Assembly: GCA_032250735.1 (NCBI GenBank)
Contig: JAVVEP010000016.1
Location: 1 to 64,000, forward strand
Length of the DNA: 64,000 nt
Direction: 5' to 3'
Source: Gammaproteobacteria bacterium
GTDB lineage: Bacteria; Pseudomonadota; Gammaproteobacteria; SZUA-152
Shown here: positions 46,830 through 60,863 of the stretch, one piece after another
Layout: every line of letters starts with the position of its first letter
How positions within the stretch are numbered: position 1 is the first letter of the stretch
Made by a program: the position numbers and the translations under genes
Notes under the pieces: model-generated
What the model was told of the DNA's origin: nothing
The model's input: the letters and a program-made list of their open reading frames with translations, nothing else
Database searches by the model: none

Positions 46830-47597
46830 ATGAAATATTTTACCCGCAAAGCCGCGCACGGAACCGCACTGCTCACATTACTGGCAGTGTTTGCGAGCCT
46901 GTCTTTTAGCGCGCAATCACTGGCGACGGAGTCCGACGATCTCGCCACCATAAAAAAGGTGCTGTCTGAACTGATGCCGCAGGCCCAGGCCGAAAGTATC
47001 AAGCCTGCCGGATTCCCCGGTATGTATGAGGCCGTTTTTGGGCCGCAGATTATCTACATCTCGGGCGATGGCCGCTACATGCTGGAAGGCGACCTGTACG
47101 ACCTGAAGAACCGGGTGAATCTCACCGAAGCCAAACGCAATGTGGGTCGCGCCAGCATTATCAGTGAGATGGATGAAAAGACCATGGTGGTCTTCTCGCC
47201 GGCGGCGGACAAGGTGAAATTTACCATCACCGCCTTCACCGATATCGACTGTGGCTACTGTAGAAAAATGCACCAGCAGATAGAAGAGTACAACAAGCTG
47301 GGCATCGCCATGCGCTACCTCGCCTACCCGCGCTCCGGGATAAACACTCCGTCCTATTTCAAGGCGGTTTCCGTGTGGTGTGCGGACGACCGCCCCGCGG
47401 CAATGACCAGGGCCAAGTCGGGAGAAACCCTGCCCAAGGCCGACTGCGCGACGCCGATCGAGGCCCACATGGATGCCGCCAAGCTGGTGGGCGTGACAGG
47501 CACGCCCACAATGGTGCTGGAGAATGGGCGGGTTATTCCCGGTTATGTGGAACCGAAGCGCCTGCTCCAGATTCTGGAACAGCTGAAAAATGGCTAA
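46830..47597 (+). CDS. dsbC: Thiol:disulfide interchange protein DsbC
   Basis: A 255-residue periplasmic disulfide isomerase. It has a Sec signal peptide (ALLTLLAVFASLSFSAQSLA), an N-terminal dimerisation domain, and a thioredoxin-like domain with active-site CGYC at C141/C144 (DIDCGYCRKMH), a second Cys pair (VWCADD, ADCATP) and the cis-Pro loop TGTPTMV. The xerD-dsbC neighbourhood matches E. coli, with yajQ inserted. Confidence 0.95.
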   Translation: MKYFTRKAAHGTALLTLLAVFASLSFSAQSLATESDDLATIKKVLSELMPQAQAESIKPAGFPGMYEAVFGPQIIYISGDGRYMLEGDLYDLKNRVNLTEAKRNVGRASIISEMDEKTMVVFSPAADKVKFTITAFTDIDCGYCRKMHQQIEEYNKLGIAMRYLAYPRSGINTPSYFKAVSVWCADDRPAAMTRAKSGETLPKADCATPIEAHMDAAKLVGVTGTPTMVLENGRVIPGYVEPKRLLQILEQLKNG

Positions 47598-50614: not shown

Positions 50615-53600
50615 TCATGGCGAGACGTCGAAAAACGTTCCGGTCGCGGTGAACAGCAGACCGCCGCCAATTTCCTTTTGCGGAAACAGCTGCTGTGCCC
50701 CACTGCAGTACAGGCGGAGCTGTTCGCGGTATTGATCGACGAGACTGTTGCACTGTTGCGGGGTTGTGACGGCATGGGTTTTGTAGTCGATGACCCAGAC
50801 CTGATCATCGGTCTCGATGAGGCGGTCGATAATCCCGAACACGGTGTGGCCGGTTTGCGGCTGGCGATACGATACGGCGACCTCGTTGTAGGCGGTCTGC
50901 GGTTGCTGAGGGGAAAATATCCAGCCCAGATCCGGGTCCTGAAATATGCGGCGGGCCTCATCAAACCACTGCGCGATGTCGTGCTGGTGGGCGGCGATCG
51001 CCAACTCCGCGGCCACCCGTGTCGGGATGGTGGCCGGCGGTTGTTGTGCGCACAGCAGTTCCAGCATGCGATGTATGGCGATGCCGCGGGTGCCATCATC
51101 GGCGGCGGCCCCCGGTCGGCCTGGCGGGGACCCGCCGGCGGAGGCGGCGTGACTGGGGGCGATCACCCGGCTGGCCGGGCCGATCTCCAGGGGTTGCGCC
51201 AACACCGCGACCAGGGAAGGGGCACCGCCGGGGCCGGTCGTTTTGCGATCGGTTATGGTGTCGACGCTCGGGGGTTCGCCGCTGCGGATGACGATGGGCG
51301 CGGACTCATCCGGGGTAATCCCGGCCGTTGCCGTGGCGTCCTGCACCGCGGCTTCGGCCTCGCGGCACTGCGTTGCCATCAGCCCATACCAGCCCAGTTC
51401 CGTGCCGCGCGTGGGGCGACAGCCGGAGATATACAGGTGCTGCTTCGGTCGGGTGATGGCGACATACAGCAGGTTGGCGTCTTCCCGTGCCTCCGCCTGC
51501 TGGTGGCGTTCCAGGATCGCCGCAGTGAAGGGGTCGCGCTGCTCCTTGGTGCCAGCCAGTAAAAAACTGCCGGGATTGGCCGCATCGGCCGGCCAGTCGA
51601 CGATGGCACGATGGGCCTGGATGCTGCGCCCGGTATTGGTGGCGTCGGCCAGAAACACCACCGGCGCCTCCAGCCCCTTGGCGGCGTGAATGGTCATGAT
51701 CCGCACCCGCGCCCCCGTCTGCAGTGGCAGGCCCTCGTCCGGTGCGTCCTGTGCCTGTTGTTGCAGGCTGTGCAGGCGCGATACAAAACGCCCGACGCTG
51801 GGGTAACGGCCGCTATCGATCTCCAGGGCGAGTTCGATGAGCCGGGTCAGGTTGGCCATCACTCGATGCTGCAGGTGTTCCGGATAGGCCGCGTGATAAC
51901 GATTGAGCACATCGCCGTCACAATAGATCCGGTCGAGCAGGTCGTGCACGGGCAGGGTGCCCACCAGACCCTGCCAGCCTGCCAGCAGTCGATGGGCGCG
52001 GTGCAGCGGACTGACCGGCGGCTGCTGTGGGCCGATCACCGCCAGACGCGCCATCCAGTGGCCCTCGGTCAGGCTCGCCAGGGCGATGAGGTCCTGTTCG
52101 CTGCAGGAAAACAGGGGGGAGCGCAGCACGCTGGCCAGGGCCAGATTGTTGAACGGGGTGATCAGCAGATTTAACAGCGCCACCAGATCCTGCACCTCCA
52201 GGCTGTGCAGCAGGGTGCCGCGATTGGCGCCGATATAGGGAATGTCGGCCTTGCGCAGGGCCTGCTCGATCTCCCCGGCATGGGTGCGATGGCGCAGCAG
52301 AATAATGATATCGCCATAGTGCAGTGGGCGCGCGGCAGCGGCCGGGCCGATCAGGCAGTGGCCGTCGATCAGCCGGCGGATCCGGGCGGCGATCTGCTGA
52401 CCCTGTCGGAGGTAACGCTGATCCTGTGCCAGTAGGCGTGGCGCCTGCAGGGGATTGCGCAGGCCGGGGACCAATGTTGGGGCGGTATCCTCTACTTCCT
52501 CATTTTCCTCATTTTCCTCATCGGTCTCGATGAGGGGCAAAAATTCCACATGGCCCCACAGTGCGGGGTGGTGTGTGGTGTGGGTGGCAAACGCCGTCAA
52601 ACGCTGTTGCAATGGCCCGCTGGCAAACACCCGGTTCACCAGGGTCATGATCGCCTCGGCGGAGCGCCAGGAAACATCCAGCGGCTGGGTAACTGCCTGT
52701 AGATGTTGTCGCAGCCACCCCTGGGCGGCGACAAACAGCTCCGGATCGGCGCGGCGAAAACGATAGATCGACTGCTTGTTATCGCCCACCAGAAACACGC
52801 TGCGACCACGCTGGTCCTCGTTGGCCGCCAGCTCTTCCAGCAGCGGGAGAATCAGCCGCCACTGGGTGGGATTGGTATCCTGAAATTCATCAATCAGCAG
52901 ATGGTCGATGCGCTGGTCCAGCTTGTACTGTACCCAGTGCACGTTGTCGCTGTGGTTGAGCAGACGATAGGCCTGCCATTCGAGGTCGGAAAAATCGAGC
53001 AACCGTTGCTCGGCCTTTAACTGTTGATAGTGTGCAAGCAGTGCCGTGCCGGCCTGATACCAGGCGCGGGTGCGCAGCAGGGTCTGGATGGCATGGCGTC
53101 GACCCATGGCCTGTTCCAGCCGCACGCAGATCTGCCCGTGCAGTGCCAGAAAGCGGAGCTGGCCCTCGTCGCCCATGGACTTGGCCTGGGTCTTGGCCTC
53201 CTTGCGGGCCAGCGGTTTGCCGGCGGCGGTGAGAAAGGCCTTTTTGCACTGGTCGAAACGTGTCTCGATATCCACGCTGTCATCACGCGCGATACCCAGC
53301 GCGGTCAATGCCTCGGCATTTTTCTTGCCCGGGTGTTTGCGCAACAGGGCGGCAAACTCGGCCAGCGCCTCGGCCATGTCGGCATCGAAAAAATCCGCTT
53401 CCGGCTGATCCGTCGCCGACACCGCCAGCTGGGCGCTGAGCCTGTCGCAGGCGTAGTCCAGCGGCGCCGACTTCGCCTCGGTATAGGCCCACCAGTCACT
53501 GCGATGGGCGAGAAAGTTGTTCAGAGCGGACTGGGTGCTGGCCAGTCCATTACAGGCCTCGAACAGGTGTTCGATGGCCCGGGCCACGTCACTCTCGGGG

Positions 53601-54079
53601 GCCGTGCTGGCGCTGGCGCATAAGGCATCCCAGGCGGCCTGCTGTAATTCCGCGGTGGATTCCAGCAGCTCAAAGCCGGGGGGAATGCCGGCCTCCAGCG
53701 GGAAGCGCCGCAGGATGTCCTGGCAAAAGGCGTGAAAGGTGGTCGCCCGCACGCTGCGCGGCGCACGCAGCAGATCCTCATACAGGGTGGTGGCGCGTTG
53801 CAGGGTCTGCGGGTCGGTGGGGGCATCGATCTGTTGCAACAGGTCCCGCAGCTCATCGGGCCCGCAACGGGCCAGCTCCAGCAGGCGCTCATTGAGACGG
53901 GTCTGCATCTCGGTGGCAGCCTTGCGGGTGAAGGTCACCGCCAGAATGCCATCGGCGCGGGCACCGGCGAGCAGCAGGCGGATCAGTCGGGTGACCAGTA
54001 ACCAGGTCTTGCCGGTGCCGGCGGAGGCGCTGACGGTGGCGCTGAGGTCGGGCTGGGAGGCGTGGAGTGGATTGGGCAT
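50615..54079 (-). CDS. addA: AddA-type double-strand-break repair helicase-nuclease
   Basis: A 1154-residue UvrD-family helicase fused to a C-terminal RecB-like nuclease. Walker A SASAGTGKTWLLV, helicase motif LLIDEFQDTNPTQW, VGDNKQSIYRFRRADPELF, and TIHAAKGLEAPVVFLAD are seen in order; the nuclease motif is in WVIDYKTHAV with HRMLELL upstream. With AddB it should resect broken DNA ends for RecA, in place of RecBCD. The start at 54079 matches the family N-terminus. It is separated from addB by 561 bases, which is unusual for this pair. Confidence 0.88.
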   Translation of the reverse strand: MPNPLHASQPDLSATVSASAGTGKTWLLVTRLIRLLLAGARADGILAVTFTRKAATEMQTRLNERLLELARCGPDELRDLLQQIDAPTDPQTLQRATTLYEDLLRAPRSVRATTFHAFCQDILRRFPLEAGIPPGFELLESTAELQQAAWDALCASASTAPESDVARAIEHLFEACNGLASTQSALNNFLAHRSDWWAYTEAKSAPLDYACDRLSAQLAVSATDQPEADFFDADMAEALAEFAALLRKHPGKKNAEALTALGIARDDSVDIETRFDQCKKAFLTAAGKPLARKEAKTQAKSMGDEGQLRFLALHGQICVRLEQAMGRRHAIQTLLRTRAWYQAGTALLAHYQQLKAEQRLLDFSDLEWQAYRLLNHSDNVHWVQYKLDQRIDHLLIDEFQDTNPTQWRLILPLLEELAANEDQRGRSVFLVGDNKQSIYRFRRADPELFVAAQGWLRQHLQAVTQPLDVSWRSAEAIMTLVNRVFASGPLQQRLTAFATHTTHHPALWGHVEFLPLIETDEENEENEEVEDTAPTLVPGLRNPLQAPRLLAQDQRYLRQGQQIAARIRRLIDGHCLIGPAAAARPLHYGDIIILLRHRTHAGEIEQALRKADIPYIGANRGTLLHSLEVQDLVALLNLLITPFNNLALASVLRSPLFSCSEQDLIALASLTEGHWMARLAVIGPQQPPVSPLHRAHRLLAGWQGLVGTLPVHDLLDRIYCDGDVLNRYHAAYPEHLQHRVMANLTRLIELALEIDSGRYPSVGRFVSRLHSLQQQAQDAPDEGLPLQTGARVRIMTIHAAKGLEAPVVFLADATNTGRSIQAHRAIVDWPADAANPGSFLLAGTKEQRDPFTAAILERHQQAEAREDANLLYVAITRPKQHLYISGCRPTRGTELGWYGLMATQCREAEAAVQDATATAGITPDESAPIVIRSGEPPSVDTITDRKTTGPGGAPSLVAVLAQPLEIGPASRVIAPSHAASAGGSPPGRPGAAADDGTRGIAIHRMLELLCAQQPPATIPTRVAAELAIAAHQHDIAQWFDEARRIFQDPDLGWIFSPQQPQTAYNEVAVSYRQPQTGHTVFGIIDRLIETDDQVWVIDYKTHAVTTPQQCNSLVDQYREQLRLYCSGAQQLFPQKEIGGGLLFTATGTFFDVSP

Positions 54080-54111
54080 GGCGGCCTATGTTATCAGCTG
54101 ATGATTCGGCC

Positions 54112-54151
54112 CGGGGTTTTGTTTGGCGACTCGGGGTTTTGTTTGGCGAGT
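54112..54151 (+). repeat. 20-bp tandem duplication before addA
   Basis: CGGGGTTTTGTTTGGCGACT (54112-54131) is followed by CGGGGTTTTGTTTGGCGAGT (54132-54151). The two units differ in one base. It lies just upstream of the addA start (minus strand). Confidence 0.9.
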
Positions 54152-54437
54152 AGGCCGACGGTTTTTTCACCGGCTCTCAGTACCACGGGGTCGTCCAGAA
54201 TTTTATGCGTGGGTGGACTATGGGTGGACTAACAGTAATCGTATGTCGTGGGTTTTTACGCTTTTTGGGCGTGTAGGATTTTTCTGAAATACTTGTAGTC
54301 ATGGATTGATGCGGTAGTTTGTCGTGATCATAAAATAGCCAGCATCACCCTGTTTACACAGTAAAAAAGTCAGAAAACCCTTCAAATAGGGTGTTTAAAT
54401 CTGTTTAAGTGGTATGGGGTCTATATTTTATATGGCC

Positions 54438-54465
54438 TTGTGATGTGAAGATTCTTTGCTACTAT
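54438..54465 (+). promoter_or_regulatory. Sigma-70-like promoter of the putative CsrB/RsmZ-type RNA
   Basis: TTGTGA (54438-54443) and TACTAT (54460-54465) are 16 bases apart and would start a transcript near 54472. About 100 bases upstream a small inverted repeat TTTAC-ACA-GTAAA (54353-54365) occurs; it does not match the TGTAAG-N6-CTTACA GacA box, so a GacA link is not shown. Confidence 0.5.
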
Positions 54466-54471
54466 CCCGAA

Positions 54472-54612
54472 CAGTTCCCGGTTTTACCCTTTGGGGTAAA
54501 GGCACGGAAGATAGCAGGGATGAGGAACGGATATTTGTCGACGGATCGACGCGGTCACGGATCGACCGGTATGGAGGTAAACGAAGGCGGCCCAGGATGG
54601 GCCGCCTTTGCT
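54472..54612 (+). ncRNA. Putative CsrA/RsmA-sequestering small RNA (CsrB/RsmZ-like)
   Basis: An about 141-nt transcript is predicted in the addB-addA gap, on the strand opposite to both genes. It contains eight GGA triplets (starting at 54506, 54518, 54524, 54529, 54543, 54559, 54573 and 54595). Three sit in hairpin loops: GTCGA-CGGA-TCGAC (54537-54550), CGGTC-ACGGATC-GACCG (54552-54568) and the terminator loop AGGAT. A 5' hairpin TTTACCC-TTTG-GGGTAAA (54483-54500) comes first. Multiple loop-presented GGA motifs and a size of 110-140 nt are the hallmarks of RsmY/RsmZ, which titrate CsrA/RsmA. No longer protein frame here has family features. The identification is inference from motif density and structure. 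Confidence 0.65.
54584..54611 (+). terminator. Rho-independent terminator of the putative small RNA
   Basis: AAGGCGGCCC-AGGAT-GGGCCGCCTT plus one more T: an eight-pair GC stem (GGCGGCCC 54586-54593 with GGGCCGCC 54599-54606). On the minus strand it reads as a similar hairpin 30 bases after the addB stop, so it may serve addB as well. The loop holds a GGA. Confidence 0.75.
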
Positions 54613-54640
54613 CGTTCTGGGCTGGTGAATTTCGGGTGGA

Positions 54641-57619
54641 CTATTCCTGCCAGGCCTGACGCCGGCACAGGCCGGACATCTGGCAGTAGGCGCAGGTCAC
54701 CTCATCCCCCCATGCCGGCATGGCCTCTCCCGTCTGGATCTGGTTTACCAGCAGATCTAGACGCTCCGCGATGTCGTCTTTCAGGCTCTCCAGGGTCTCT
54801 GTCTCCAGCGTGCCAACGGTCTTGACCGCGGTCTTCCGCGAGGCGGACGCCGGGCGGCCATTGGCCAGATCCTTGCGCTCGTCCAGGGCGAGGTATTCGA
54901 CTCGGGTGACGGTTTCGCTGCCGGTGCTTTCCGCCAGCAGGGCATAAAAGGGCAGTTGCACGGACTCACCGCTCAACACCTCGGCAGCGTCAGGAATGGC
55001 GCCGGTCTTGTAGTCGATAATGCCCACCACCCTGGCGCCGGTCTCGGCATCCACCCCGGCATCGATACGATCCAGACGGCCGCGCAGGGTCACCGTGCTG
55101 TTGGGGCGCGGCGTCGAGACCGTCAGCTCGGTGGATTTCACCTGCCAGTCCTGTTGTCGGGTGAACTGCCAGTCGATGTATTCGGGGATCATCAGCTGCC
55201 AGCGTTTCAGCCAGCCCCGGTGCAGGAAATTATCCTCCAGGTCGCGGGCAAACACGGCGACCGCGATGTCGTGCAGGCACTGTACGGCGGCGGACCTGTT
55301 GTTGTCTGATAGCGGGGAGGCAAAGGGCCCCGGCAGGCCGCTGACGTCATGATGAAAGGCCTGCAGGCAGAGGTGCACGCGTTCGCCGTAGTCGGCCTTG
55401 GCCAGCATCTCGCGGATCAGCTCCGGGGGCTCCAGCTTCAGGCAGCGCGCCGCAAAAAACTGATACGGACAATTGATCAACTGCTGATAGCCGCTGGCGG
55501 ACAGAAATTCCGGAAACAGCTCGGCGCCAATCCGGGCCGTGGGATGGGCGGCCATCGGCTGCGGCAGGGGGTCGGCGACACGGGTGACCTGCAGGTTGCC
55601 GTGATTGACGAGCTGGGTGAGCGGCTGATCAATCAGGTCATCGTCATAGGCCAGCTGATGAAAGGACTGCAGGCGCTGCAGCCAGGCGGAGGCCACCACC
55701 GCCTCGCCGTCCTGTTCCTGGCGATGGGTGAGCAGGATGCGATCGGCCGACTCCAGCAGGCAGCGAAACTGGTGAAACTTTTCACTCAGGCGTTGGCTGT
55801 GGCCGCTGAGTCCCAGCGCCTGCCGCACCCCGTCATTGAAAAAGGGCGAGCCGCCCACCGTGCCCGGCAGGTATTCGGCCTCGCAGCCGGCGATGATGAG
55901 CGCATCGAACCGACTGAGGACGCTTTGCCCCAGGCTCATGAGCTGCACCTGGCCGGTCTGCGCCGGCGGCTGGAAATTGAAGCGCTCCAGGGTACGTCCC
56001 AGCCAGGTGCGGAATTCCGACCAGCGCATCCGCAGATTGCTGCCCTGGGTCGCGGCCTGCATCTGTTGCAGCTCCTGCAGGATGCGTTGACCGGCGGCGT
56101 CGTCCGTGAACGATTGGCTGAGGCCCAGCCGCTCGAGGCTGGTGGCCAGCGCGGCCAGGAACTCGCCGGGTGGATGGGGGGTGTCGCCGGTGAGATCCAG
56201 CAGCGGGCTGGCCGCGGTCGCCAGCTCATCTAACAGTAAGTGTATGTCGTCGTAGTCGGCCGCCATGTCGGCGGGCAGGCGGTTCTGGCGATAGCGCAAA
56301 TGCTGCCGGTAGCGGTTGAGGTTGCGCGCGACATTTTCCTTCAGCACCACGCCCTGTTCAAACCGGTACACGCAGGACAGGCGCGCTTCGCGATCCTGCC
56401 CGGGCAGCAGATAGGGCGACTTGAGCAGGTCCAGCAGGGGCTGGTAGGCAAAGTCGTCCTCGAGGGTTTCCAGCCAGCGCTCCAGCGTGGCGGCGGCGCT
56501 GGTGGTGGATAAGGCCCAGCCCGCCGCATCCTGCAGGTTGATGCCGGAGCGTTCCAGCAGCGCGCGGGTGCGGCGGGCGAGTCGCCGGTTCTCGGTGACG
56601 ATGCCGATGTTGCGTTTGCCCTCATGCCACCAGAGTCGCACCTGCAGGTCGATGGCCTGGGCCTCCCGTTCCGCATTGCCGGCGGCGAAGATGGCGATCC
56701 TTTCCGCCACCGGGCTGTGGGGGAAATCCTGCGCACAGGCGCTGGCGCGTAGGCGCAGCGGGCTGGGGCTGTCGCTGTAGATGGAGTCGAGGCACTGGCC
56801 GTACGGATTGTCGGCGGCGGCGGGGATCGCCGCGGCACTGTCGAGGCGCTGCAGGAGATCCTGCATCCCGCGAGCGGGGTGATAGTCCGTGTCCGGCAGC
56901 GCCAGGGGGCTGGCCTGTAACAGGATCTCGGCCTGCTGCCGCGCCAGCAGGTGGCGCAACCAGTGGGCCTGTGCCGGCGAAACATCGCCCAGGCCGGCGA
57001 TATAAAAATGCGCCCTGGGGGAGAGCGAGGCCTGGCAGGCGGCGAGTTTTAGCAGCTGGTCGGTGTGCCGATCGATCACCCCGGCGGCGTGCATCTGCTG
57101 GTGCCAGGCCTGCCAGAGGGAGTGCACCAGCCGCGCCTCGCCGACCAGGCTGTCGTGATCGAGACGCTCCAGCCCGTAGGCGCCGGCCAGTTGTTCAACA
57201 AAGGGGTCGAGCGTTTCGGGCAGGCTGAGATGGGTCGCGCCCAGTTCATCAAACAATTCCAGCAGGCTGTCCGCCAGCGTCCAGGGATTGCCCTGACCGT
57301 AGAGCCAGGGGTGGCTGATCAGCGCCTCGACCAGCATCAGCTCCCGCTGATGTTCCGAGAGCACCGCCTGTTCAGTAATGGATTGCTGATTGACCCAGCG
57401 GGGCAGGGTGTCGATGGTCGGCCCCAGCAGGGCCGGAAACTGGTGGTCGGCGGCTATCTCCAGTAACACCTGCCGAAATCGCAGGCTGGCCTGTGGGGTG
57501 GGTAGCAGGACAATGACATCGGTGAGCTTGGGTAGGGTGTCGCGGTGGGTTTCGATCAGCTGTTGGGCAAGCCTGCGCAAAGGGTCCTCGCCATAGGGGA
57601 TGACCTGCAGGGCGCACAC
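54641..57619 (-). CDS. addB: AddB-type PD-(D/E)XK nuclease with Fe-S cluster
   Basis: A 992-residue protein with a degenerate helicase-like N-terminal part and a C-terminal nuclease. The nuclease core reads GIIDYKTGAIP. A cysteine in NCPYQFFAARCL plus the C-terminal CAYCQMSGLC (C-x2-C-x5-C) form the four-cysteine iron-sulfur staple known in AddB. It pairs with AddA downstream. GTG 57619 overlaps the last base of the fdxA stop, and the frame upstream of it only duplicates fdxA in another frame. No strong ribosome binding site, so translation is probably coupled to fdxA. Confidence 0.88.
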   Translation of the reverse strand: MCALQVIPYGEDPLRRLAQQLIETHRDTLPKLTDVIVLLPTPQASLRFRQVLLEIAADHQFPALLGPTIDTLPRWVNQQSITEQAVLSEHQRELMLVEALISHPWLYGQGNPWTLADSLLELFDELGATHLSLPETLDPFVEQLAGAYGLERLDHDSLVGEARLVHSLWQAWHQQMHAAGVIDRHTDQLLKLAACQASLSPRAHFYIAGLGDVSPAQAHWLRHLLARQQAEILLQASPLALPDTDYHPARGMQDLLQRLDSAAAIPAAADNPYGQCLDSIYSDSPSPLRLRASACAQDFPHSPVAERIAIFAAGNAEREAQAIDLQVRLWWHEGKRNIGIVTENRRLARRTRALLERSGINLQDAAGWALSTTSAAATLERWLETLEDDFAYQPLLDLLKSPYLLPGQDREARLSCVYRFEQGVVLKENVARNLNRYRQHLRYRQNRLPADMAADYDDIHLLLDELATAASPLLDLTGDTPHPPGEFLAALATSLERLGLSQSFTDDAAGQRILQELQQMQAATQGSNLRMRWSEFRTWLGRTLERFNFQPPAQTGQVQLMSLGQSVLSRFDALIIAGCEAEYLPGTVGGSPFFNDGVRQALGLSGHSQRLSEKFHQFRCLLESADRILLTHRQEQDGEAVVASAWLQRLQSFHQLAYDDDLIDQPLTQLVNHGNLQVTRVADPLPQPMAAHPTARIGAELFPEFLSASGYQQLINCPYQFFAARCLKLEPPELIREMLAKADYGERVHLCLQAFHHDVSGLPGPFASPLSDNNRSAAVQCLHDIAVAVFARDLEDNFLHRGWLKRWQLMIPEYIDWQFTRQQDWQVKSTELTVSTPRPNSTVTLRGRLDRIDAGVDAETGARVVGIIDYKTGAIPDAAEVLSGESVQLPFYALLAESTGSETVTRVEYLALDERKDLANGRPASASRKTAVKTVGTLETETLESLKDDIAERLDLLVNQIQTGEAMPAWGDEVTCAYCQMSGLCRRQAWQE

Positions 57620-57942
57620 TAACGGATCAGCTTGTCGAGCTTGTTCGGCACGCCTTCCCATTGCTTGGCGTCGGCGGGCGCCGGTTTGATTTCGGTGATG
57701 ACCGGCCACTGCTGGCTCAGTTCGGCGTTGAGGGCGATAAACTTCAACTGGTCCTCCGGCAGATCGTCTTCCGAATAGATCGCGTTGATCGGGCACTCGG
57801 GTTCGCAAAGGGTGCAATCGATGCACTCCTCGGGGTCGATGACCAGCATGTTCGGACCTTCGTGAAAGCAGTCGACCGGGCAGACCTCCACACAATCGGT
57901 GTACTTGCACAAGATGCATTCTTCGGTAACAACGTAAGTCAT
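57619..57942 (-). CDS. fdxA: Seven-iron ferredoxin FdxA
   Basis: A 107-residue ferredoxin of the Azotobacter FdI type. The first cluster region is [20 protein letters not shown] (3Fe-4S and 4Fe-4S ligands), followed by [16 protein letters not shown]. The C-terminal extension ([14 protein letters not shown]) is typical. AGGAGG stands 6 bases before ATG 57942. The mutS-fdxA neighbourhood is conserved in many gammaproteobacteria. Confidence 0.95.
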
Positions 57943-58184: not shown

Positions 58185-60863
58185 TCACGCAGGCTTGTCG
58201 ATCAGCCTCTGCAATTCGTAAAGCGCGGCCAGGGCCTCGCGGGGGGCCAGGCCGTCGGGGTCGATCTTCCGCAGCGCATGCAGGGCCGGATGATCGTCGC
58301 TCGGCGCGGCGAACAGGGAAAACTGTTCGACCGCCGTGCCCCGGGGGGCATTGGCGGTCTGGCTTTCCAGTTGCAGCAGGTGTTGCTGGGCGCGTTTGAT
58401 CACCGAGCCCGGCACCCCGGCCAGCGCGGCTACCTGCAGACCATAACTTTGATTAGCAGGCCCCTCTTTTACCGCATGCATAAATACGATGCCGTCGCCG
58501 TGTTCCACCGCGTCCAGGTGGACATTGGCCACCTGGGTCAGGGTTTCCGGCAGGCACGTGAGTTCAAAGTAGTGGGTGGCAAACAGGGTGAAGGCCCGCA
58601 CGCTGCTGGCCAGCTCCTCGGCGCAGGCCCAGGCCAGCGACAGGCCATCGAAGGTGGAGGTGCCGCGGCCCACTTCATCCATCAATACCAGGCTGCGTTC
58701 ACTGGCATTGTGCAGGATGTTGGCGGTCTCGGTCATTTCCACCATAAAAGTGGATCGACCACCGGCCAGATCGTCGGAGGCGCCGATGCGGGTGAAGATG
58801 CGATCGAACGGCCCGATCACCGCGCGGCGGGCCGGCACGAAACTGCCGGCGTGGGCCAGCAGGGTGATGAGTGCGGTCTGGCGCATGTAGGTGGATTTAC
58901 CACCCATGTTGGGTCCGGTGATGATCAGCATGCGCCGCTGTTCATCAAACTGCACGTCATTGGGAATGAAGGGGTTATCCATCACCTGTTCCACCACCGG
59001 GTGGCGGCCACCTTCGATGTGCAGTCCGGGCGTGTCGACTAATTCTGGTTGGCACAGATCCAGTGTCTCTGCACGTTCGGCGAGATTGACCAGCGCATCC
59101 AGCTCCGCTATTGCACTGGCGCTGTCTTGCATTGCCGGCAGCACCTCGGCCAGTTGCGTGAACAGCGCCTCATAGAGCATCTTTTCGCGGGCCAGCGCAC
59201 GCTCCTTTGAGGACAGCGCCTTGTCCTCAAAGCCTTTGAGTTCGGGAGTGATGTAGCGCTCGGCGCCTTTCAGGGTCTGGCGACGAATATAGTCTTCCGG
59301 CGCCTTGGCCGACTGCGCCTTGCTGATCTCGATGTAATAGCCGTGCACCCGATTGTAGGCCACTTTGAGGGTGCTGATGCCGCTACGCTCACGTTCGCGA
59401 TGTTCCAGGTCTAACAAAAACTGTCCGGCGTTGTGCTTGATCGCACGCAGCTCGTCCAGCTCGCTGTCATAGCCGGGGGCGATGACCCCGCCGTCGCGAA
59501 TCAGCATCGGCGGCACCTCGACGATGGCGGCGCGAAGCAGGGCGTGTTGCTTAGGGTATTCGCCGATGCGTTGTCGCAGGGTCTCCAGCAGCCGGCAGTC
59601 CTGGCCGGCGATGATGTCGCCGAGCGCCTGGCGTAGCGCGGGCAGGCGTTCCAGGGTATCGCGCAGCTGGGAAAAATCCCGCGGTCGGGCGTTGCCAATG
59701 GCGATGCGCGCGAGGATGCGTTCCACATCGCCGACGGCGCGCAGGATGCTCTGCAGCGCCTCGTAGCGATGTCCGTCGAGCAGCACTGCAATGGCCTGAT
59801 GCCGCTGGCGCAGGGCCGGGTGGTCGGCCAGCGGGCGGTTGATCCAGCGCCGCAGCAGGCGACTGCCCATGGGCGTGACGGTGTGGTCCATCACCCAGGC
59901 GAGGGTGTGTTCACGGCCGCCGCCGAGATTGGTTTCCAGCTCCAGATTACGGCGGCTGGCGGCGTCCAGCACGATGCTGTCTTCGCGGCGCTCCACCTGC
60001 AGGCCGCGCAGGTGCGGCAGGGCGGTACGCTGGGTATCCTTGACGTATTGCAGCAGGCAGCCGGCGGCGCTCACCGCCAGATGCAGCTGCTCGCAGCCAA
60101 AGCCGGCCAGGTCATGGGTGCCGAACTGCTGGGTGAGCAACCGCCGCGCGGTCTGCGCTTCAAAATACCAGGGTGGCTGGCGACGCAGGCCGGGGCGCTG
60201 GGGATCAATACCGGCGGGCAGCGCCTCGTCATTGAGCATTTCGTCATTTAACAACAGCTCGGAGGGATTGAGTCGCTCCAGCTCGCCGACCAGCGCCTCT
60301 TCGCCGTCCACCTCCAGCACGCTAAAGCGGCCGCTGGTGACATCCAGCGCGGCGATGCCGAATCGTGCGCCCAGCGCCTGCACCGCCACCACCAGATTGT
60401 CGCGGCGCTCTTCCAGCAGGGCCTCGTCGGTGACCGTGCCGGGGGTGACGATGCGTGTTACCTTACGTTCCACGGGGCCCTTGGAGGTGGCCGGATCGCC
60501 GATCTGCTCGCAGATGGCGACCGACTCACCCTGGCGCACCAGCCTGGCCAGATAGCCATCGGCCGCATGGTAGGGGATGCCGCACATGGGGATAGGGTCG
60601 CCGCCGGATTTGCCGCGCGCGGTGAGGGTGATGTCCAGCAGCTTCGCCGCCTTGCGGGCGTCGTCGAAAAATAATTCGTAAAAATCACCCATGCGATAAA
60701 ACAGCAGGGTATGCGGAAATTCTGCCTTGATGCGCAGAAACTGCGTAATCATCGGGGTGTGCTGGCCATCGGCCTGGGGTGTCTTGGTGCCGGCCTGGGT
60801 GCCGGCTTGAGTACCGGCCTGGTGACTGGCGTGAGGGGTTACTTTGGGGGCGCTGGCTGGCAT
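58185..60863 (-). CDS. mutS: DNA mismatch repair protein MutS
   Basis: An 892-residue mismatch-recognition ATPase. The mismatch-contact motif [15 protein letters not shown] lies near residue 55 and the ATPase motifs are [33 protein letters not shown] and [11 protein letters not shown]. The N-terminal about 38 residues before [16 protein letters not shown] are extra compared with E. coli. They contain three QAGT repeats, encoded by a 12-bp tandem unit (60786-60833). ATG 60863 is used; a shorter start is possible but no ATG lies before the conserved MITQF. Confidence 0.97.

Follow-up and report, generated by a model that had tools for sequence, protein, structure and literature searches.

The window, a stretch of 64,000 nucleotides, very probably carries a stand-alone gene for a small RNA of the CsrB/RsmZ kind, activated by GacA, titrating CsrA and, by its position, most likely orthologous to Pseudomonas rsmZ. 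The predicted RNA, about 140 nt long with eight GGA motifs, extends from 54472 to 54612 on the plus strand, and homologues, covariation and GGA conservation characterize it as an RsmZ/CsrB-type CsrA sponge. Its role is almost certainly to sequester CsrA, a global regulator, and it reads as a lineage-specific relative of known RsmZ/CsrB RNAs that Rfam has missed. A preliminary description of this DNA had already proposed this identity, which is now supported by homologues in 23 of 24 family genomes, covarying GGA hairpins, a conserved upstream element, csrA and GacA in the genome and an RsmZ-like synteny, in addition to the anatomy of the gene itself.

The small RNA gene lies between two DNA-repair genes encoded on the minus strand. 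It diverges from an addA-like helicase gene (50615-54079; TIGR02784 addA, 629.5 bits, below the curated cut-off; Pfam UvrD helicase and PDDEXK_1) and converges with an addB-like gene (54641-57919 as the listed ORF; TIGR02786 addB, 194.7 bits, also below the curated cut-off; PD-(D/E)XK nuclease), whose stop codon is found, tail-to-tail, about 30 bp from the RNA. Direct reading of the locus bore out the earlier statement that the RNA and its neighbours addB and addA are encoded on opposite strands. Since the AddB match does not begin until residue 107, the real addB start must be internal to the listed ORF. This over-long ORF overlaps, in another frame, fdxA (57619-57942, minus strand; 7Fe ferredoxin, NF045490, 165.4 bits, over the cut-off), so that the order in the window is mutS-fdxA-addB-sRNA-addA, with the sRNA on the opposite strand and mutS (58185-60863, minus strand; Pfam MutS domains I-V) as a syntenic marker. 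The window also contains dsbC (46830-47597). The helicase-nuclease pair at 50615-57919 is of the AddAB type and resembles alphaproteobacterial models; its host is a gammaproteobacterium. A possible coding ORF at 54409-54825 on the plus strand was rejected because it runs antisense into addB and its frame is broken by indels in relatives. The preliminary description had included neither fdxA (57619-57942, minus strand) nor the 5' cap hairpin (54483-54500) nor the upstream activating element (54272-54289).

The promoter (54438-54465, plus strand) consists of a -35 hexamer TTGTGA (54438-54443), a 16-nt spacer and a -10 hexamer TACTAT (54460-54465) with an extended -10 TG (54457-54458), from which a transcription start around 54472 is predicted. 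The layout TTG...N16...TGnTA is common to all 23 family copies examined, which confirms the promoter previously placed in the addB/addA gap. At the other end of the gene, a terminator hairpin (54584-54608, plus strand) is formed by a 10-bp stem (54584-54593/54599-54608) closing the loop AGGAT; 99.5% of its cells are paired across the alignment and the loop GGA is present in 20/24 sequences. The Rho-independent terminator of the preliminary description thus holds as a hairpin, with an interrupted U-tract (UUUGCUCGUU) that makes it a weak-tailed one. This interruption is seen in genus g1, unlike g3. Moreover, a sequence conserved after the terminator in genus g1, GCUCGUUCC (54609-54618 in the window), can pair with an upstream GGAACG (54525-54530). 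Generic promoter and simple terminator scans of the window listed neither the promoter of the sRNA nor its terminator.

The eight GGA motifs start at 54506, 54518, 54524, 54529, 54543, 54559, 54573 and 54595, all within 92 bases. Two of them (54543 and 54559) occupy small hairpin loops and one (54595) the terminator loop, so that count and covariation together uphold the arrangement first noticed in the gap; the other motifs are unpaired, and the three in loops belong to covarying hairpins. At least eight GGA per 141 nt are found in 0.2% of plus-strand windows and in no minus-strand window of the 64 kb. This density is reached by 1.8% of mononucleotide shuffles versus 17% of dinucleotide shuffles. 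Because of the latter figure, the GGA count was rejected as proof; alone it is only mildly unusual, and its significance comes from conservation. In an alignment of 24 cores (a core being 116 positions), the motifs at 54518, 54529, 54543 and 54573 are kept in 24/24 sequences, 54506 in 22/24, 54559 in 21/24, 54595 in 20/24 and 54524 in 10/24, while the sequence surrounding them varies. The motif at 54573, kept throughout, opens a Shine-Dalgarno-like GGAGGU of the CsrA type (54573-54578, plus strand) between the second GGA hairpin and the terminator, and this hexamer is intact in 22/24 alignment rows. That the gap is merely GGA-rich intergenic DNA giving no transcript would agree with the dinucleotide shuffles and with the silence of the generic scans, yet this reading has next to no probability in view of the conservation and covariation, the uniform promoter and the conserved upstream element seen in relatives.

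The structure of the RNA was supported by an unconstrained RNAalifold prediction on a MAFFT alignment, which recovered the terminator and two GGA hairpins. The first, GUCG-ACGGAU-CGAC (54537-54550, plus strand), keeps its GGA in 24/24 sequences and shows a compensatory change from G-C to A-U at one pair in 7 sequences; its loop is ACGGAU in the window and AAGGAU in most relatives, in agreement with the ARGGAU loop in the SELEX consensus for CsrA. The second, CGGUC-ACGGAUC-GACCG (54552-54568, plus strand), keeps its GGA in 21/24 sequences, with changes from C-G to U-A in 6 sequences and from U-A to A-U in 5. Over the whole consensus structure, 98.3% of cells are paired, a value that none of 500 shuffles equalled and that falls to 24-56% in slid versions. 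Both-sided changes occur at 8 of the 18 pairs, and the 27 compensatory cells compare with 7.9 +/- 2.1 in shuffles (0/500 as high). Folding of 54472-54612, which the preliminary description had proposed as a check, gave a divided result: the single-sequence minimum free energy fold lacks the two GGA hairpins (-54.8 versus -41.9 kcal/mol for the consensus fold), but covariation in the alignment reveals them, and the expectation that GGA loops would be conserved in relatives was borne out by hairpins that are both conserved and covarying. The absence of the two hairpins from the single-sequence fold is explained by their being near-repeats that cross-pair with each other. A further hairpin at the 5' end, UUUACCC-UUUG-GGGUAAA (54483-54500, plus strand), is kept as a tetraloop hairpin in relatives with different stems, its counterparts being UUGCUC(UUCG)GGGCAA in genus g1 and UUUGCC(UUCG)GGCAAA in g3.

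When 57 related genomes were searched at the DNA level, 13 had a match, the window's own included. A covariance model (R1) built from 13 sequences located the RNA in 23 of the 24 family genomes, covering six genera, and picked up plausible copies with weaker scores in further families of the class. The closest copies come from metagenome-assembled Gammaproteobacteria, including isolates SZUA-152, NORP100 and HyVt-540 as well as some labelled Chromatiales. Core lengths differ by 1, 2 or 3 nt, so there is no conserved reading frame and the RNA is not coding; the presence of homologues where addB and addA are not neighbours points to an independent gene. At the level of sequence, then, the uniform promoter, the paired terminator, indels that do not come in threes and the separation from neighbouring genes describe an independent non-coding unit. 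Genome G294 holds two near-identical GGA-hairpin sRNAs (L068 and L079), likely a duplicated CsrB-type pair, and one of the contigs also carries a 5S rRNA gene. In genome G011 (L006/L043), the 5' part contains about three 42-nt (2 x 21-nt) GGA-bearing tandem repeats (TRF score 222; 1594-1739 of L043), so that the RNA is predicted to be about 288 nt long and to contain 19 GGA; the promoter is the same and the upstream element intact.

This upstream element came to light when the upstream DNA of the loci was scored against the GacA/UvrY consensus TGTAAG-N6-CTTACA. No exact canonical site is present upstream of the sRNA, but most loci shared the position of their best partial match, and this revealed a conserved element, TGTAGGAATTTTCTGAAA followed by a TGTAGTC-like half-site. 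In the window, the putative GacA/UvrY activating site is the 18-bp TGTAGGATTTTTCTGAAA (54272-54289, plus strand; compare TGTAAGN6CTTACA), centred at about -190 from the predicted start, and the second half-site, TGTAGTC (54294-54300, plus strand; kept as TGTAGTC or TGTAATC), follows the inverted repeat after 4 bp. Only 9/12 bases match the E. coli/Pseudomonas consensus. Among the 18-mers in the 420 nt upstream, the element is the best conserved, being matched at 14/18 positions at least in 18 of the 21 other loci (median for other 18-mers, 0). Of 12 loci from other genera or families, 9 retain it, where shuffled versions reached a maximum of 2. It lies at a near-constant distance from the RNA, and the copies of g3 and f45 have it too. 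The UvrY repeat of E. coli csrB is centred at -183/-182, with a half-site TGTAGGAGA 5 bp downstream (PMC4682653), and the upstream site of Pseudomonas rsmZ is TGTAAGCATTCGCTTACT (PMC4353343); the Rfam-certified rsmZ of genome G170 is preceded at a similar distance by TGTAAGCATTTGCTTACG, then, after a few bases, TGTAAG. By comparison of these sites, the putative element matches those of E. coli csrB and certified rsmZ in sequence, spacing and position. A search of the same genome for sibling sRNAs by the upstream pattern gave three other sites (on C1, C4 and C12), none followed by a GGA-hairpin RNA. One perfect TGTAAG-N6-CTTACA palindrome, followed by TGTAGG, occurs at 1501-1518 of L105 (G000:C12:58956-58973); it stands upstream of a minus-strand gene with a lipoprotein-like start, which might be a direct, non-sRNA target of GacA.

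Both protein partners are encoded in the genome that carries the RNA. The preliminary description had made its proposal depend on a csrA/rsmA gene, and csrA is present in one copy (94.3 bits; also matched by NCBIfam CsrA), preceded by an aspartokinase gene and followed by tRNA genes; a GacA/UvrY orthologue scores 294.5 bits, over the curated cut-off. GacA was found in 24/24 family genomes and csrA in 21/24; of the three genomes with no csrA match, two are incomplete assemblies. The third, G014 (the genome of L052), is 97% complete, and both the RNA and GacA are present in it. We infer transcription, control by GacA, CsrA binding and a regulatory outcome as follows. Phosphorylated GacA would bind the inverted repeat at about -190 and the adjacent half-site, and might then activate the sigma-70 extended -10 promoter, leading to an RNA of about 140 nt that stops at the terminator hairpin with its GGA loop. 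Several CsrA dimers could be bound by the GGA motifs of this RNA, of which two are in hexa- and heptaloops, one is in the terminator loop and others are unpaired, including GGAGGU. CsrA would thereby be taken off its target mRNAs and translational repression relieved.

The surroundings of the RNA differ among lineages. In genus g3 and in L060, from another family, the order is dsbC and sRNA in the same direction, then a convergent fdxA; the RNA of L041-L048 and L060 is flanked by dsbC and fdxA with no addB or addA at its sides; fdxA adjoins the sRNA in g3 and f45. L052 (g4) and L070, from another family, show mutS and fdxA in the same direction facing a convergent sRNA, and L063 and L066, from two further families, have the sRNA flanked by addA and addB. 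These arrangements bear on the idea of a cis-acting addBA element, in which a shared bidirectional terminator and an antisense or leader RNA would control addB or addA. The tail-to-tail position of the sRNA about 30 bp from the addB stop codon, a weak U-tract that may allow read-through into antisense addB and the description of Alcanivorax CsrR2 as antisense to its adjacent fdx gene (PMC9788540) fit such an element. We nevertheless consider it very unlikely, because the RNA persists beside dsbC/fdxA or mutS-fdxA where addB and addA are not at its sides, because the upstream element is retained in the g3 and f45 copies, and because conservation is located in the GGA motifs and hairpins.

For a free-standing rsmZ-type gene, the neighbourhood offers positive evidence. 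The rsmZ gene of Pseudomonas is flanked by rpoS and fdxA, and mutS is depicted in this region as well (PMC3395598, PMC4353343). L052 and L070 have the sRNA adjoining fdxA-mutS convergently, and the window differs from them as mutS-fdxA-addB-sRNA. In genome G170 the certified RsmZ follows an rpoS-like gene, by reading of the ORF; neither fdxA nor mutS turned up in the 19 kb that were read, so the Pseudomonas fdxA/mutS arrangement is taken from the two published studies. The most parsimonious view is that of a single ancestral rsmZ locus that either acquired addBA on its flank or lost it. A bolder proposal, which we regard as doubtful, is that of an unrecognised rsmZ lineage spread over several gammaproteobacterial families, its titration capacity tuned by tandem duplication of GGA units (from 8 GGA to the 19 of G011); a second, longer form would moreover be free to act as antisense to addB in genus g1, where the terminator is weak and CUCGUUCC is conserved after it, coupling Gac/Rsm to double-strand-break repair.

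The Infernal/Rfam match foreseen in the preliminary description was not obtained at the locus. At gathering and relaxed thresholds, Rfam returned nothing significant in the window; RF00166 PrrB_RsmZ (gathering cut-off 44 bits) had no match there and none over the cut-off in the 24 family genomes, RF00018 CsrB (71 bits) did not match in the window, and no family reached its gathering score in relatives or looser homologues. The best CsrB-clan match at the locus, to rsmX, is misplaced and scores 15.9 bits against a cut-off of 56. This miss is uninformative, as Rfam covers the class narrowly: among the 276 genomes sampled from it, just 1 passed the RsmY cut-off. Weak RF00166 matches elsewhere in the family genomes (14-32 bits) were rejected: the four looked at match mainly in the terminator and are mostly GGA-poor. 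L084, one of the weak matches, is GGA-rich. L066 has a sub-threshold RsmZ match (25.7 bits, E 0.023) and is also matched by a second model, R2, built from this family and one outgroup, with no Rfam sequence. In the profile comparison bearing on orthology with RsmZ, R2 matches certified RsmZ (L107; 84.2 bits by Rfam) from end to end, with a score of 24.9 bits and E 6.9e-6 for the 9 kb searched. A base-pairing structured sRNA of the Hfq type, with GGA motifs by coincidence, would also possess its own promoter and terminator, and the best Rfam noise match is indeed the terminator of an Hfq-binding RNA. Such an sRNA is extremely unlikely in view of four GGA motifs invariant in 24 sequences and three motifs in covarying hairpin loops amid a variable intervening sequence, of a GacA-type upstream element and of a full-length model match to RsmZ.

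Read as a CsrA sponge, the RNA indicates that the Gac/Csr switch exists in a group of Gammaproteobacteria documented chiefly by metagenome assemblies, one recognisable sponge RNA having been found in this analysis. RNAs of this sort are missed by the Rfam CsrB-clan models, and the covariance model together with the promoter element provides a handle for locating them elsewhere; alignment A4 could seed a new Rfam family. Through the mutS-fdxA synteny, a number of scattered sRNAs are traced to a single ancestral rsmZ locus, and the doubled tandem-repeat RNA of G011 suggests a route from a short RsmZ to the size of CsrB.

Among known systems, the closest likeness is with RsmZ of Pseudomonas (PrrB/RsmZ, RF00166), which like the window RNA is about 130-140 nt long, has eight GGA with three in loops, as reported for P. 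fluorescens SS101 (PMC4353343), and possesses an independent promoter, an 18-bp upstream site and an fdxA/mutS neighbourhood. The window RNA differs in falling below the Rfam cut-off, in its repeat (TGTAGG-N6-CTGAAA versus TGTAAG-N6-CTTACA) and in having addB between fdxA and the RNA, and addA where Pseudomonas has rpoS. RsmY and RsmX (RF00195, RF02144) are of the same kind, size and GGA hairpin design, but they match the window RNA only at noise level and occupy another genomic place in Pseudomonas. CsrB and CsrC of enterobacteria (RF00018, RF00084) share multiple GGA and an upstream repeat with half-site, whereas CsrB is far longer (Rfam model of 356 positions versus the 116-position core of this family). 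Finally, CsrR2 of Alcanivorax, compared by its description, is likewise an sRNA predicted to titrate CsrA, located next to a ferredoxin gene and having a promoter of its own (PMC9788540); it belongs to another lineage and, in contrast to the window RNA, overlaps fdx in antisense.
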